Assembly (NCBI GenBank): GCA_002731275.1
Contig: PCBK01000067.1
Coordinates: 1 to 43,190 of the forward strand
DNA from: Deltaproteobacteria bacterium
GTDB taxonomy: Bacteria; Myxococcota_C; UBA6777
Direction: 5' to 3'
Length of the DNA: 43,190 nucleotides
The notes under the pieces are model-generated. The model ran no database searches and was not told where the DNA came from. It saw nothing but the letters and a program-made list of their open reading frames with translations. The translations under genes and the position numbers were made by a program. Below are positions 29,576-43,190 of this stretch, piece by piece; the first letter of the stretch is position 1; each line of letters opens with the position of its first letter.

Positions 29576-32236
29576 TTAACGACACTGTTTGCCCACACAA
29601 GCGCTCGTGGAGGTGCAGTCTGCGTTGCGAACGCACTGGATCAAACACACACCATTTGAGCACTTAAAATTGCCAGGACACGACGCAAACACATTGCATT
29701 TGTGCTCTACAATGGGCTCACAGCGCCCTTCCTGACACCAGTATCCCTTTTTGCAATGGGTGTTGTCATCACAGCGAAAGTAACAACCAGAAGATGACAG
29801 ACATGCATATCCCGCCTCACAATCCCCATCAACCTGACAGCTTTTCCCTGTCAACGCGACACACTTTTGAACGCGAATGTCACAGTAAAAGTAAGGACCA
29901 CACTCCCTGTCCGACTGACACGACTTCGTACAGGTGCGCTTCTCGTAATCGCAGGCGTACCCTTTACACTCCTCGTCAACAAGACACTCAACGTTCCCAA
30001 ACGCTCCTGAAACATAACATCGACCTGTCAGCAAAGAACATTGAAACTGCCCGCGACACCCTCCCGTGCCATCACATCTTTCGGCGCATGTTCCATTCCT
30101 GCATGCATAGCCGTGCTTACATGGATTCGACGCAGAGCACGGATTGACAGGGACAAGGGCAACACATCGTCCTTGTTGGCATGAGAAACCAGGCTTGCAA
30201 TGATGCGGGTCAGAGCAGCTCCGCAAGCACTTGCGTGTGAGCAAATTACACAAGAAACCATGTCGACAATCGCTGTGCTGAAGGCACTCAGCCTCATTCC
30301 CACTTGCGGATGTCGGCACACAAGCGGACTGTGTACATTCAAATCCAGTCAGACAGTCGATGGTGTTGGTACACCTTTTGCCGCAGATACCTTTTGTCTT
30401 CGCACAGACACCGCCAGCAGGGCAATCACTGTCACTCCCACATTTAGGGAGACAAGACCCCTCCACACAGACCATCCCCGAAGAAGGACAGGCGTTACTA
30501 CCACCAGAACATGCTTTGCGACAGCTCGCATCGATGCACTTGTAACCATCTGGACAATTCTTTCCGTTAGAGCACAAGAGCGAAGGTCGACAAAGACCCC
30601 CTCGACACTCAAGATTGTCATCTTCACATGACCCCTGACACTGCAACAAACATGTGTTGGTGTCTATCTCACATCCATACCCCGTGGGACAGTTCTCATT
30701 TGATGAGCATGAAGGGATTTTTGAACACTGGCCATTCTGCAAACAGGTATATCCAGCCTGACAGTCCTCCGCCCTCAAACACCTGCTGATACAATCACTA
30801 CCGGAAGACTCACAAGCATATCCTCCCTTACATTCGTTCCTGGTATCACACGCCTCACCGAGTTTGAATGGCTGGCATATTCCAGCGCGACATTCTTCAC
30901 CATACTTACAATTGAAGTTGTACTGACATGTCACCACACAAGGAGGTTGCGGACATGACGGTTTTTGACATTGTCCGTTTCCACAGCTCTGACCACTGGC
31001 ACATCGATTTCCACACGCACCACAATGCAGTGGATCAGTCTGTTTATCGACACAGCCGCCATAACAAGTCTCTTTGCCGCCAGTACAACGCCCAACACAG
31101 TTTCCCCTATCACAAAGACCACTGGCGCAGGGACTCTCGCACCTTCCACAGTGAAGCGCGCTGCTCAACGTGTCGACACACCTTCCAAGACAGAGCGTGG
31201 TTCCTTCTGGACATCGACACTTACCAGCGTTGCAATCTTGACCGCTGGCACATCGATTTCCACACGCTCCACAGTGTTGAGGGTTTGTCTGCTTGTCGAC
31301 ACAACCACCATAACACGTATCGGGTGTCGGAGCGGGACAGGTCTGTGTGCACGCTCCACTCGCACAAACCTGTCCACTTTGACATGTCTTTCCACAACCA
31401 CCACAGTGCTTTTCAGAATACGAACTGGCGACACATATCCCCCCACAATCCTGGAATGTACCAGCACATTGACACTGACCTTCCTTGCAGATTTGATCCC
31501 CACGACAAGCCTTTCCACAATCACCACAGTGAAAACGGTTATAAGACGTATCGACGCAACCCCCATAACAGATCTTAGGTGTTGATGGAGGACAACTCGC
31601 AACACACTGACCATTTGCACATAATTGTCCTGTCGGACATACTTTCCCACAACGACCACAGTGCTGTTGTGTGTTTGCGAGCTCGACACACTCTCCATCG
31701 CAATCGCTCAGTCCCTCTGGACACGCACAACGTCCGGCAAGACAGGTCCGGCCTTTCTCACAGCTTTTGCCACACGCGCCACAGTGTGAAGAGTCCGTCT
31801 TTGTGTCCACACACTTCCCGCCACACTCCGTGGAGGTCGGCGCGTAACAGGTCTCACTTTTTGTGGAGCAAGTGCTGTTCTTACACGTCTCTCCTGCTTT
31901 GCAGGCTTGGTTACATCCCCCACAATGTTCGGAGTCAGCTGATGTCTCGATACATTTACCATCGCAACGAGTGAAACCATTTTGGCAGTAACATCCACCT
32001 TGTTGACACAACTGACCATTTAGACACTTGTTCCCACAACGACCGCAGTGTTGGTTATGGCTCGCGACGTTGACACAAACACTGTCGCACAAGACCTTCC
32101 CATCTGCACACAAACACTCTCCATCCACACAAGAGCGACCACTTGGACATCCCTGGTCACTCTCACACCCAGGCGGTGTACAAGACGGTAAAAGAGACAC
32201 CCACAACAAAAGCAGCAACAATAGCCAACGAAACAT
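29576..32236 (-). CDS. large cysteine-module lipoprotein
   Basis: An 886-residue putative surface lipoprotein. The signal peptide MFRWLLLLLLLWVSLLPSC ends in a lipobox (LPSC). The first half carries nine modules of about 35-45 residues of the type C-x-G-x-C-V-(13 residues)-HCG-x-CG-x-x-C, followed by a G-x-x-C-x-x-G-x-C tail; examples are DTCYGGCVDKQTNPQHCGAC and ETCYGGCVDKQTDPLHCGAC. The second half switches to shorter C-x(4)-DC-x-x-GY-x-C modules, like those of Dickkopf/EB-type eukaryotic proteins. Such modules are frequent in myxobacterial surface proteins. The start at 32236 has GGAG 6 bp upstream. It lies 133 bp downstream of a membrane kinase gene on the same strand, so the kinase may respond to it, or control it (inference). 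Confidence 0.92.
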   Translation of the reverse strand: MFRWLLLLLLLWVSLLPSCTPPGCESDQGCPSGRSCVDGECLCADGKVLCDSVCVNVASHNQHCGRCGNKCLNGQLCQQGGCYCQNGFTRCDGKCIETSADSEHCGGCNQACKAGETCKNSTCSTKSETCYAPTSTECGGKCVDTKTDSSHCGACGKSCEKGRTCLAGRCACPEGLSDCDGECVELANTQQHCGRCGKVCPTGQLCANGQCVASCPPSTPKICYGGCVDTSYNRFHCGDCGKACRGDQICKEGQCQCAGTFQDCGGICVASSYSEKHCGGCGKTCQSGQVCASGACTQTCPAPTPDTCYGGCVDKQTNPQHCGACGNRCASGQDCNAGKCRCPEGTTLCLGRCVDTLSSALHCGRCESPCASGLCDRGNCVGRCTGGKETCYGGCVDKQTDPLHCGACGNRCASGQSCGNGQCQKPSCPQPPCVVTCQYNFNCKYGEECRAGICQPFKLGEACDTRNECKGGYACESSGSDCISRCLRAEDCQAGYTCLQNGQCSKIPSCSSNENCPTGYGCEIDTNTCLLQCQGSCEDDNLECRGGLCRPSLLCSNGKNCPDGYKCIDASCRKACSGGSNACPSSGMVCVEGSCLPKCGSDSDCPAGGVCAKTKGICGKRCTNTIDCLTGFECTQSACVPTSASGNEAECLQHSDCRHGFLCNLLTRKCLRSCSDPHHCKPGFSCQQGRCVALVPVNPCSASNPCKHGYACRNGTCAERCDGTGGCRGQFQCSLLTGRCYVSGAFGNVECLVDEECKGYACDYEKRTCTKSCQSDRECGPYFYCDIRVQKCVALTGKSCQVDGDCEAGYACLSSSGCYFRCDDNTHCKKGYWCQEGRCEPIVEHKCNVFASCPGNFKCSNGVCLIQCVRNADCTSTSACVGKQCR

Positions 32237-32369
32237 CCAACACTCCAAAGACACAGAGGTCATCCGAAGAAGACTGCAAAAGAAAGACTGACTTTCTCTA
32301 CAATACGACAATACATCACTGAATTGAAGGGTTTTCTCAGAGCGGCCGCTAAATACGAAGAGCTACAGC

Positions 32370-37915: not shown

Positions 37916-37929
37916 GACGACTGCAAGGA

Positions 37930-38010
37930 AAAATGCAACATCAAGGTCGGACACAAGTCCTGACCCACCGAAAAATGAAAGCATCGAGGTCGGACACAAG
38001 GCCCGACCCC
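37930..38010 (+). repeat. two direct copies of a GGTCGGAC... palindromic element
   Basis: Copies at about 37930-37966 and 37972-38010 share AAAATG, then an ATC and AGGTCGGACACAAG, followed by inverse arms (CTGACC or CCCGACC). The second copy's core (37986-38007) is the exact reverse complement of 42388-42409 in the repeat island at the right end of the window. Confidence 0.8.
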
Positions 38011-42087: not shown

Positions 42088-42095
42088 ATCGAATG

Positions 42096-42137
42096 CTGCT
42101 CCAAGGGCGGTTGCATTTGTGTCTTCGCAAGCTCCCC
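42096..42137 (-). repeat. inverted repeat pair, copy 1 (42 bp)
   Basis: The reverse complement of this 42-bp stretch matches 42934-42975 at 33 of 42 positions, without gaps. Shared parts include GGGGAG, TTGCG, GAGACA-type, TGCAAC and GGAGCAG. Confidence 0.85.
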
Positions 42138-42325
42138 CCTGTAAGATCAACGCTTTGCTTCGCTCGACAATGGGAGCGATGCAAGACCCCCTCAGACGGG
42201 CTTCGCCCGCCAGCTCCCCCTGTACAACTTTGTTGACAAGGGGAGCGATGCAAGACCCCCTCAGCCTCCCTTGCGGTCGGCAGCTCCCCCTGCTATTCAA
42301 CTACGTTGGCAAGGGGAGCGATGCA
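42131..42325 (+). repeat. tandem array, period about 70 bp
   Basis: GGGAGCGATGCA recurs at 42172, 42241 and 42314. In the first two units it continues identically as AGACCCCCTCAG. CAGCTCCCCCTG-type segments alternate with it (42131, 42211, 42281). AGCTCCCC and GGGGAGC are inverse, so each unit can fold. The spacers vary and include small hairpins such as CGGGC-TTC-GCCCG (42197-42209). Confidence 0.85.
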
Positions 42326-42379
42326 CGTCAAAGGATATATCGCAATACAAACGAAAAATCCGTGTATGTCGGATGGATT

Positions 42380-42505
42380 TCAGTAAGGTCGGGCCTTGTG
42401 TCCGACCTCAATTTTCGTATATATCGGCAGAATAGCCCCTCCTCTCGAAAGGCTTGAGAGGAGGGAAGGAGCGACAGGGTGGTGAGTTTGTTGAGGTGGA
42501 TGATT
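42380..42505 (+). repeat. direct repeat pair, copy A
   Basis: Matches 43045-43175 over nearly its whole length. Contains a GGTCGG/CCGACC hairpin (42387-42407), the conserved CGTATATATCGG, and a perfect 10-bp stem CCCTCCTCTC/GAGAGGAGGG (42437-42446, 42456-42465) with a 9-nt loop. Confidence 0.9.
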
Positions 42506-42570
42506 CTAAAGCGCACGAAGCAAATCAGAATTCGGGTATCTTCCGTGCATATCGGATGGGCTGTTTTTGA

Positions 42571-42592
42571 GGGTGGGTCTTTAGACCTGCCC
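42571..42592. repeat. palindrome with GGTCT-TT-AGACC core
   Basis: GGTCT and AGACC flank TT; two G-T pairs and three more G-C pairs extend the stem to ten base pairs. Confidence 0.75.
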
Positions 42593-42604
42593 AATTCCAA
42601 TCGT

Positions 42605-42625
42605 CGCGAGGCCTTCGGCCTCGCG
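42605..42625. repeat. perfect 9-bp hairpin with C(TTCG)G loop
   Basis: CGCGAGGCC (42605-42613) and GGCCTCGCG (42617-42625) are exact inverses around TTC. As RNA the loop could form the very stable C(UUCG)G tetraloop. Confidence 0.9.
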
Positions 42626-42640
42626 TACCCTCTCCATAGG

Positions 42641-42658
42641 CCCAGGTTTTAACCTGGG
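42641..42658. repeat. palindrome CCCAGGTT-TT-AACCTGGG
   Basis: Exact 8-bp arms around TT. Confidence 0.9.
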
Positions 42659-42789
42659 TATACGGCCATTCGTATCCCTTATATCCGTCCGTGTGAGGAT
42701 ATTTGTTTCCATTGGATGCATCCGGTCCGAAGGTTGGTTGGAGGGATTCATTATGAATGTTTGGTTGGATGGATTCGTTTGTTTGGTGT

Positions 42790-42809
42790 CACCGGGTTGA
42801 AACCCGGTG
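42790..42809. repeat. palindrome CACCGGGTT-GA-AACCCGGTG
   Basis: Exact 9-bp arms around GA. Confidence 0.9.
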
Positions 42810-42862
42810 CTATAGAAAAGGTACGCTCGCCTTCAAGGCTTCGCATCGATCAGAATTGCGGC

Positions 42863-42877
42863 GGGACTCAAAGTCCC
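42863..42877. repeat. palindrome GGGACT-CAA-AGTCCC
   Basis: Exact 6-bp arms around CAA; a flanking GGC/ACC extends it imperfectly. Confidence 0.85.
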
Positions 42878-42933
42878 ACCTCAACGCAAAAACACAACCC
42901 ATCACAAGGAGATCTGATTTTCTCGTGGAATCA

Positions 42934-42975
42934 GGGGAGTTTGCGGAGACACGAGTGCAACGTCCGCCGGAGCAG
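42934..42975 (+). repeat. inverted repeat pair, copy 2 (42 bp)
   Basis: Partner of 42096-42137 in opposite orientation, 33 of 42 positions equal. It is followed by TTTTCGAGTCTCCCCC, whose TTCGA is also found next to copy 1. Confidence 0.85.
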
Positions 42976-43044
42976 TTTTCGAGTCTCCCCCATGTATAGG
43001 GTTTGCCCCTGATGTCGCCAAATCTTCGAATATATCGTTTGAAA

Positions 43045-43175
43045 TCAGTAGGGTCGGGCCTTGCGCCCGACCTCAACCCCCGTATATATCGGTTGGTTTG
43101 TCCCTCCTCTCGAAAGGCTTGAGAGGAGGGAAGAGCCGAAGGCTCAGGGTGGAGAGTTTGTTGAGGCGGATGATT
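43045..43175 (+). repeat. direct repeat pair, copy B
   Basis: Second copy of 42380-42505. Its GGTCGGGC/GCCCGACC stem (43052-43059, 43065-43072) is perfect over 8 bp. The CCCTCCTCTC/GAGAGGAGGG stem is identical to copy A. A 5-bp larger segment adds a small hairpin AGCC-GAA-GGCT (43134-43144) where copy A has a shorter, unpaired sequence. Confidence 0.9.
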
Positions 43176-43190
43176 GCAAGTGAAGACGCA

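Follow-up and report, generated by a model that had tools for sequence, protein, structure and literature searches.

The closest described counterpart of the structures considered here is the class II ITxF of E. coli, PIT/TM_ECO (Holder et al. 2015, PMC4666352), in which a C-rich stem, a loop, a G-rich stem, a second loop of 3 nt and a mirrored G-rich third strand follow one another. The motif is repeated and intergenic; it folds in vitro, and triplexes were not detected by in vivo footprinting. The published search for ITxFs admitted loops of 1–6 nt (PMC4666352), a limit that is a search setting and no physical requirement. Repeats of other builds also bear comparison, namely GTAG-tagged REPs (Di Nocera et al. 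2013, PMC3733652); BIMEs, which are mosaics of palindromes and spacers at gene 3′ ends with tandem modules; MITEs, which are short, non-coding and multicopy with terminal inverted repeats; and Rpn nucleases (TIGR01784/PF12784), which are reported to be hitchhiking anti-phage toxins and not transposases (PMC10327210).

The window, that is, the whole stretch of 43,190 nt that was analysed (contig C56), belongs to a 10.75-Mb draft genome of 200 contigs (94.65% complete, 5.5% contamination). Positions 42096–43190 are the truncated end of one mosaic repeat island, and this copy is incomplete as its right edge coincides with the contig end. The islands are non-coding and ~1 kb long, and many of the 200 contigs terminate inside one. 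An earlier note had proposed a search for dispersed copies, and many were found: within its own genome the 1.1-kb region is matched significantly at least 143 times, representing at least about 40 islands, a lower bound because scoring covered 40 of 327 candidates. In the same genome the exact pattern of module D occurs 170 times and the same pattern reversed not at all; the hairpin of module C has 155 copies at up to two mismatches. For the phylum, five genomes including the source were covered, all from one family; in the four besides the source the region, the D motif and the C hairpin have no match, nor does the D pattern match plasmid, phage or viral-contig collections; the H hairpin is absent from the viral contigs, and a first pattern derived from module E had no match in the genome contigs. 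The island family is species-specific, its case being built on one draft genome. The region is probably a member of a species-specific mosaic family of non-coding islands of non-autonomous structured DNA, comparable in build to enterobacterial BIMEs, in which intrastrand-triplex hairpins are the main building block.

The left end of the island (42096–42137, minus strand) lies 9 bp past the point where the upstream ORF stops, and the same end occurs near stop codons in other islands. It is an inverted, terminal-inverted-repeat-like copy of the 3′ end of modules E, F and G, identical at 33 of 42 positions to the reverse complement of 42934–42975, where the best of 30 shuffles of the region reached 26/42. 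There follow three minus-strand units of the ~70-bp A array, spaced by 69 and 73 bp: a partial unit 1 (42129–42183), unit 2 (42187–42246) and unit 3 (42256–42319), the last two sharing one design. The remaining modules are on the plus strand. Module B (42328–42362) is a palindrome of the GGATATATCGCGATATAAACG type, with 40 copies in the fetched loci; the first copy of module C (42383–42407) is a REP hairpin, GGTCGGGCCTTGTGTCCGACC, tagged GTAA here and GTAG in most copies; and the first module D (42416–42505) holds a triplex motif at 42437–42486 whose loop 2 is shortened to 11 nt. The MITE-like element H (42562–42895) has inverted arms at 42565–42667 and 42787–42888 that are 72% identical, with three hairpins each. 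Next come the 3′ part of module E (42925–42983) with its end motif GTGCAACGTCCGCCGGAGCAG, a second module C (43048–43072) with the GTAG tag and REP hairpin, and a second module D (43080–43179), truncated downstream at the contig end, whose triplex motif occupies 43102–43156. The tandem array, the 42-bp inverted pair and the direct pair (42380–42505 with 43045–43175, 82% identity) described in the earlier note were thus all recovered, as was its statement that the island holds no transposase or integrase gene. Its palindromes are also present; the single design that they were said to share is not, since A and D are polypurine/polypyrimidine hairpins accompanied by a third strand, C is a GTAG-tagged REP, H has three-hairpin arms, and E, F and G are long-stem spacers.

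Mapping with consensus modules as probes gives a common island order of A(1–3)-B-C-D-(E-D)n-(F-D)n-G with H optional, the E-D and F-D pairs having expanded in tandem. Modules A, B, C and D measure ~70, 37, 54 and 100 bp, and the fetched loci contain, partial matches counted, 82 A, 82 D, 51 C, 44 E, 40 B, 20 G and 17 F. E, F and G share one terminal motif, GTGCAACGTCCGCCGGATCAG, of which the left end in the window is the inverted copy. This anatomy is established. Orientation is mostly uniform, inverted D or E being confined to the left end in some of the islands. The islands resemble BIMEs as palindrome/spacer mosaics at gene 3′ ends with tandem modules; they differ from them in their triplex hairpins and long-stem spacers and in keeping one orientation and order, whereas BIMEs alternate their REPs, and REPs alternating in orientation with spacer motifs were not found in the islands. 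Element H occurs in or beside islands and also alone (L123:17235–17657); being short, non-coding and multicopy with terminal inverted repeats, it is MITE-like, and it shares with MITEs two inverted arms of ~100 bp, the lack of genes and solitary copies, but differs in carrying three hairpins per arm. Its insertion boundaries are indistinct, and its link to Rpn, a candidate parent, is not general. C hairpins are likewise found alone or in small arrays (L120; window 37944–38009). The stretch 37928–38009 of the window comprises two solitary C-type REP hairpins with a 43-bp tandem period, inverted relative to the island, and the ORF just upstream has a thioredoxin-like CGPC motif, read by eye.

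An additional repeated module with hairpins AACGCTTTGCGTT, AAAACCTGTCGGTTTT and AGAATGGCTGACGACAGCCATTCT borders several islands on their left and also precedes one Rpn gene (L103:18127–18318, L050, L054, L070, L075 and L245). A second island type, which combines triplex motifs that have a CCCCCTTCC stem with variants of the E unit, lies near contig starts (L058:1–1165, L084:1–340, L086 and L095). Elsewhere in the window, a 911-aa ORF (29576–32311) has six STIG1-like cysteine-rich stretches (Pfam PF04885), a family known chiefly from plants.

The islands are intergenic, and called islands contain no gene except overlapping weak ORFs and Rpn genes. The stop of an inward-reading gene faces 21 of the 29 terminal ends that were testable, often within 100 bp, and in a separate gene call the downstream neighbour was opposed in 17 of 21 cases. 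Integron-like cassettes were ruled out, as the modules lack ORFs; a CRISPR array, already denied by the earlier note, is rejected because the spacers are themselves recurring modules.

The most specific feature of the island, the third strand, was absent from the earlier note. Module D reads TCCCTCCTCTC-GAAAGGCTT-GAGAGGAGGGA-(AGAGCCGAAGGCTC)-AGGGTGGAGAG, in which the last block lacks complementarity to the other blocks and instead mirrors the purine strand of the stem, T being allowed for A. An antiparallel purine-motif triplex needs such a mirrored purine strand, and the block fits one with 11/11 triads under the rule G.GC, A.AT and T.AT; in the second D copy of the window the stem TCCCTCCTCTC/GAGAGGAGGGA, the loop-2 hairpin GAGCCGAAGGCTC and the third strand AGGGTGGAGAG likewise give 11/11 triads. 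D, and A on the minus strand, have the same plan of Y stem, R stem and mirrored third strand with a second loop that is itself a hairpin; in A these are GCTCCCC, a loop, GGGGGAGC, a hairpin and GAGGGGG. Among distinct polypurine hairpins of the genome, which were not chosen for having a third strand, a perfect one lies beside 85 of 94, where 0.71 were expected with shuffled flanks. These span 11 of 15 stem sequences, a better measure than the 85 since the copies are related and are not independent events. The mirror copies number 62 and same-direction copies, the control, 1; shuffled sequence gave no third-strand motif. Other stems have third strands of their own, such as AGAGGAAGGGGGA with AGGGGGATGGAGA, GGAGAAGGG with GGGATGAGG and, by reading of L055, GGAGAGAAAGGGG with GGGGATTGTGAGG. 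In a permutation test 6 of 380 cross pairs of third strands with foreign stems were perfect, which shows only that third strands misfit other stems, as the families were picked for being perfect. Some copies have a broken third strand, for example 9/10 in L048:4707. Conservation of the third strand is established, and we infer that the triplex forms in the cell.

The motif departs from TM_ECO in its stem of 10–13 bp, in its sequence and in being arrayed in islands with further modules. Its second loop also differs, usually being a hairpin of 12–16 nt; in D, loop 1 has 9 nt and loop 2 has 11–16 nt, usually hairpinned, and both fall outside the 1–6-nt setting. A hairpin-looped class would therefore have gone unlisted in a search limited to such loops. 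A pattern of the A design with 27 fixed bases matches at least 116 stretches in public genomes, the matches listed coming from Clostridia, Oscillospiraceae, Caulobacteraceae and other Alphaproteobacteria, Bifidobacterium, Muribaculaceae and Acidimicrobiia, and the hairpin-looped design occurs in at least four phyla. At these foreign loci a perfect third strand accompanies 59 of 104 polypurine hairpins (1.17 expected) and 20 of 33 stems; the former share is inflated because such a motif was the reason for retrieving the loci, an effect that does not extend to the variety of stems. Among second loops measuring 10 nt or longer, 90% contain a stem of 4 bp or more, a figure that drops to 23% on shuffling. 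The A-design pattern is also present in three viral contigs; in the viral contig L125 (2050–2450 and 6600–7000) paired A-type triplex motifs lie between genes, one having the variant stem CTCTCCC and the third strand CTCTCTC. A literature search on the A core sequence returned nothing relevant.

The stems were examined in 25 D-E units for compensatory change, the check that the earlier note had suggested, and the outcome favours conserved pairing: in the consensus structure pairing is kept in 98.8% of cells, and double-change cells number 43 against 12.6 in shuffles, none of 500 being as high, which is also far above slid controls. One E hairpin exists in three forms, GGATATGG-CTTG-CTATATCC, GGATGTCG-CCTG-CGACATCC and GGATGTTG-CCTG-CAACATCC, and the loop-2 hairpin of D has the alleles GAGCC/GGCTC, GTCGC/GCGAC and GTCAC/GTGAC. 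The fold as DNA, with a z of −3.65, speaks for the island family favoured here. The covariation, a strong fold and island ends mostly facing gene 3′ ends could also be read as marks of transcribed structured RNAs, long 3′-UTR or terminator modules of convergent genes whose stems are kept at the RNA level. With the D-E structure fitted to the opposite strand, however, G-U and A-C deviations number 67 and 58 cells and 16 and 14 column events, a balance that gives no sign of selection acting on a plus-strand RNA; for module A the picture is less clear, each fitted structure leaning its own way. As wobble changes have no consistent strand bias, folded DNA is favoured over RNA. Further against the RNA reading, no promoter was found, terminator-like sites are at chance (2 against 1.6), Rfam has no match for the region, and the geometry of antiparallel purine-motif triplexes is that of DNA. 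Maintenance as RNA is thus quite unlikely. Of the two options in the earlier note, cassette-like interspersed modules stand, given their fixed order and the solitary copies of H, and structured RNA is not favoured.

Balanced wobble changes have another potential source. Template-switch correction yields compensatory changes without strand bias, and the changes seen in the stems could therefore have arisen by quasi-palindrome correction, with selection absent. On that account the islands would be neutral debris, their palindromes perfected by such correction and spread by ectopic recombination, with neither function nor triplex. The account is compatible with the stem and wobble data; it fails to predict the matched third strands of 85 of the 94 hairpins, because correction perfects complements and not mirror repeats, and it is accordingly judged unlikely.

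As to how the modules may have moved, module C shares with GTAG-tagged REPs a GTAG beside a palindrome of ~21 bp, about 155 copies and an extragenic position; as GTAG precedes 29 of 32 copies, it can be classed among them. It is unlike them in its species-specific sequence, in its place inside a fixed larger array and in having no typical RAYT flanked by it. The islands might then be classical REP/BIME elements moved by a RAYT, a Y1 transposase cutting and pasting the single-stranded C (GTAG) and H (ATAG) hairpins, with the rest as inter-REP spacer. Besides the tag, the hundreds of extragenic copies speak for this, as does one RAYT-like gene (C107:24897–25412) with a palindrome array of its own. 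That gene reaches 55 bits against a cut-off of 80, is single-copy and stands beside a different REP family: at L116:14300–15415 (C107:24300–25415) it is preceded by many GGGCAAGTGGAAACTTGCCC palindromes. No Y1 or RAYT-like gene is flanked on both sides by C or H, and no cognate RAYT flanked by the C repeat was found in the 94.65% complete assembly; D, A, E and G, moreover, lack a known REP tag. Movement by a RAYT is on balance doubtful. A link to IS200 was also rejected, as the four Y1_Tnp matches, the remaining Y1 genes, are IS200/IS605 TnpA genes whose own ends are not island repeats.

Rpn genes were considered as a further candidate. Three of the five PDDEXK_2 (Rpn) genes lie inside islands (L103:16881–18197, L245:1–810 and L246:1240–1872, on contigs C27, C120 and C145), and the gene is absent from most islands; the Rpn of L103 lies between H arms, that of L245 runs into H and that of L246 into D, with stop codons abutting the module. 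The island protein matches TIGR01784 (TIGR01784/PF12784) at 180 bits; EGxQEG-type repeats were seen ahead of its C-terminal domain. Location and match would suit islands that are the relic of an Rpn (PD-(D/E)XK) transposon, with H and its neighbours as deletion derivatives mobilised by Rpn. Against such an origin, the Rpn loci of four relatives lack H and D, one of them (L254) having an unrelated short triplex motif; the junction varies, with H at two loci and D at one; and published work opposes a transposase role (PMC10327210). The relic origin is very unlikely, and Rpn as a general mover found no support when checked in relatives. Given the relatives' loci and the published role, Rpn is likely cargo of the islands.

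Signs of rearrangement at the folded structure itself were seen in module D. Seven of 170 copies carry the usual loop 1 in reverse-complemented form next to an unchanged third strand (AAGCCTTTC, AATCCTTTC and AACCCTTTC); as three loop alleles occur among the inverted copies, at least three separate stem-loop inversions took place. Cruciform resolution, template switching or recombination in the palindromic stem would each be able to yield such an inversion, and the inversions point to activity at the folded structure. For the BIME-like island family favoured here, a mechanism can be proposed in which the modules, during single-stranded phases of lagging-strand synthesis, transcription or repair, would fold into triplex and hairpin knots at which polymerases stall, favouring switches of template as well as recombination. 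These events could in turn produce tandem growth of E-D and F-D units, swaps of modules between islands and flipped stem-loops. New sites, as we infer, would most likely be reached by REP-type single-strand copying driven by some enzyme or by host replication, and landing sites would be tolerated positions behind stop codons. A benefit to the host, such as the separation of convergent transcripts or a role with gyrase or the nucleoid, would be secondary and is putative.

More tentatively, hairpin-looped intrastrand triplexes may constitute a distinct repeat class across phyla, selected for three-stranded folding in vivo and expanded in this organism into ordered structural or recombination islands at gene ends. 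The islands bear on the question of whether intrastrand triplexes arise in living bacteria and have any importance there: one genome supplies ~170 copies of one design together with several stem families with matched third strands. With these copies and stem families, the inversions and a design present in several phyla, it becomes directly testable whether the third strand is under selection and how this is linked to rearrangement.
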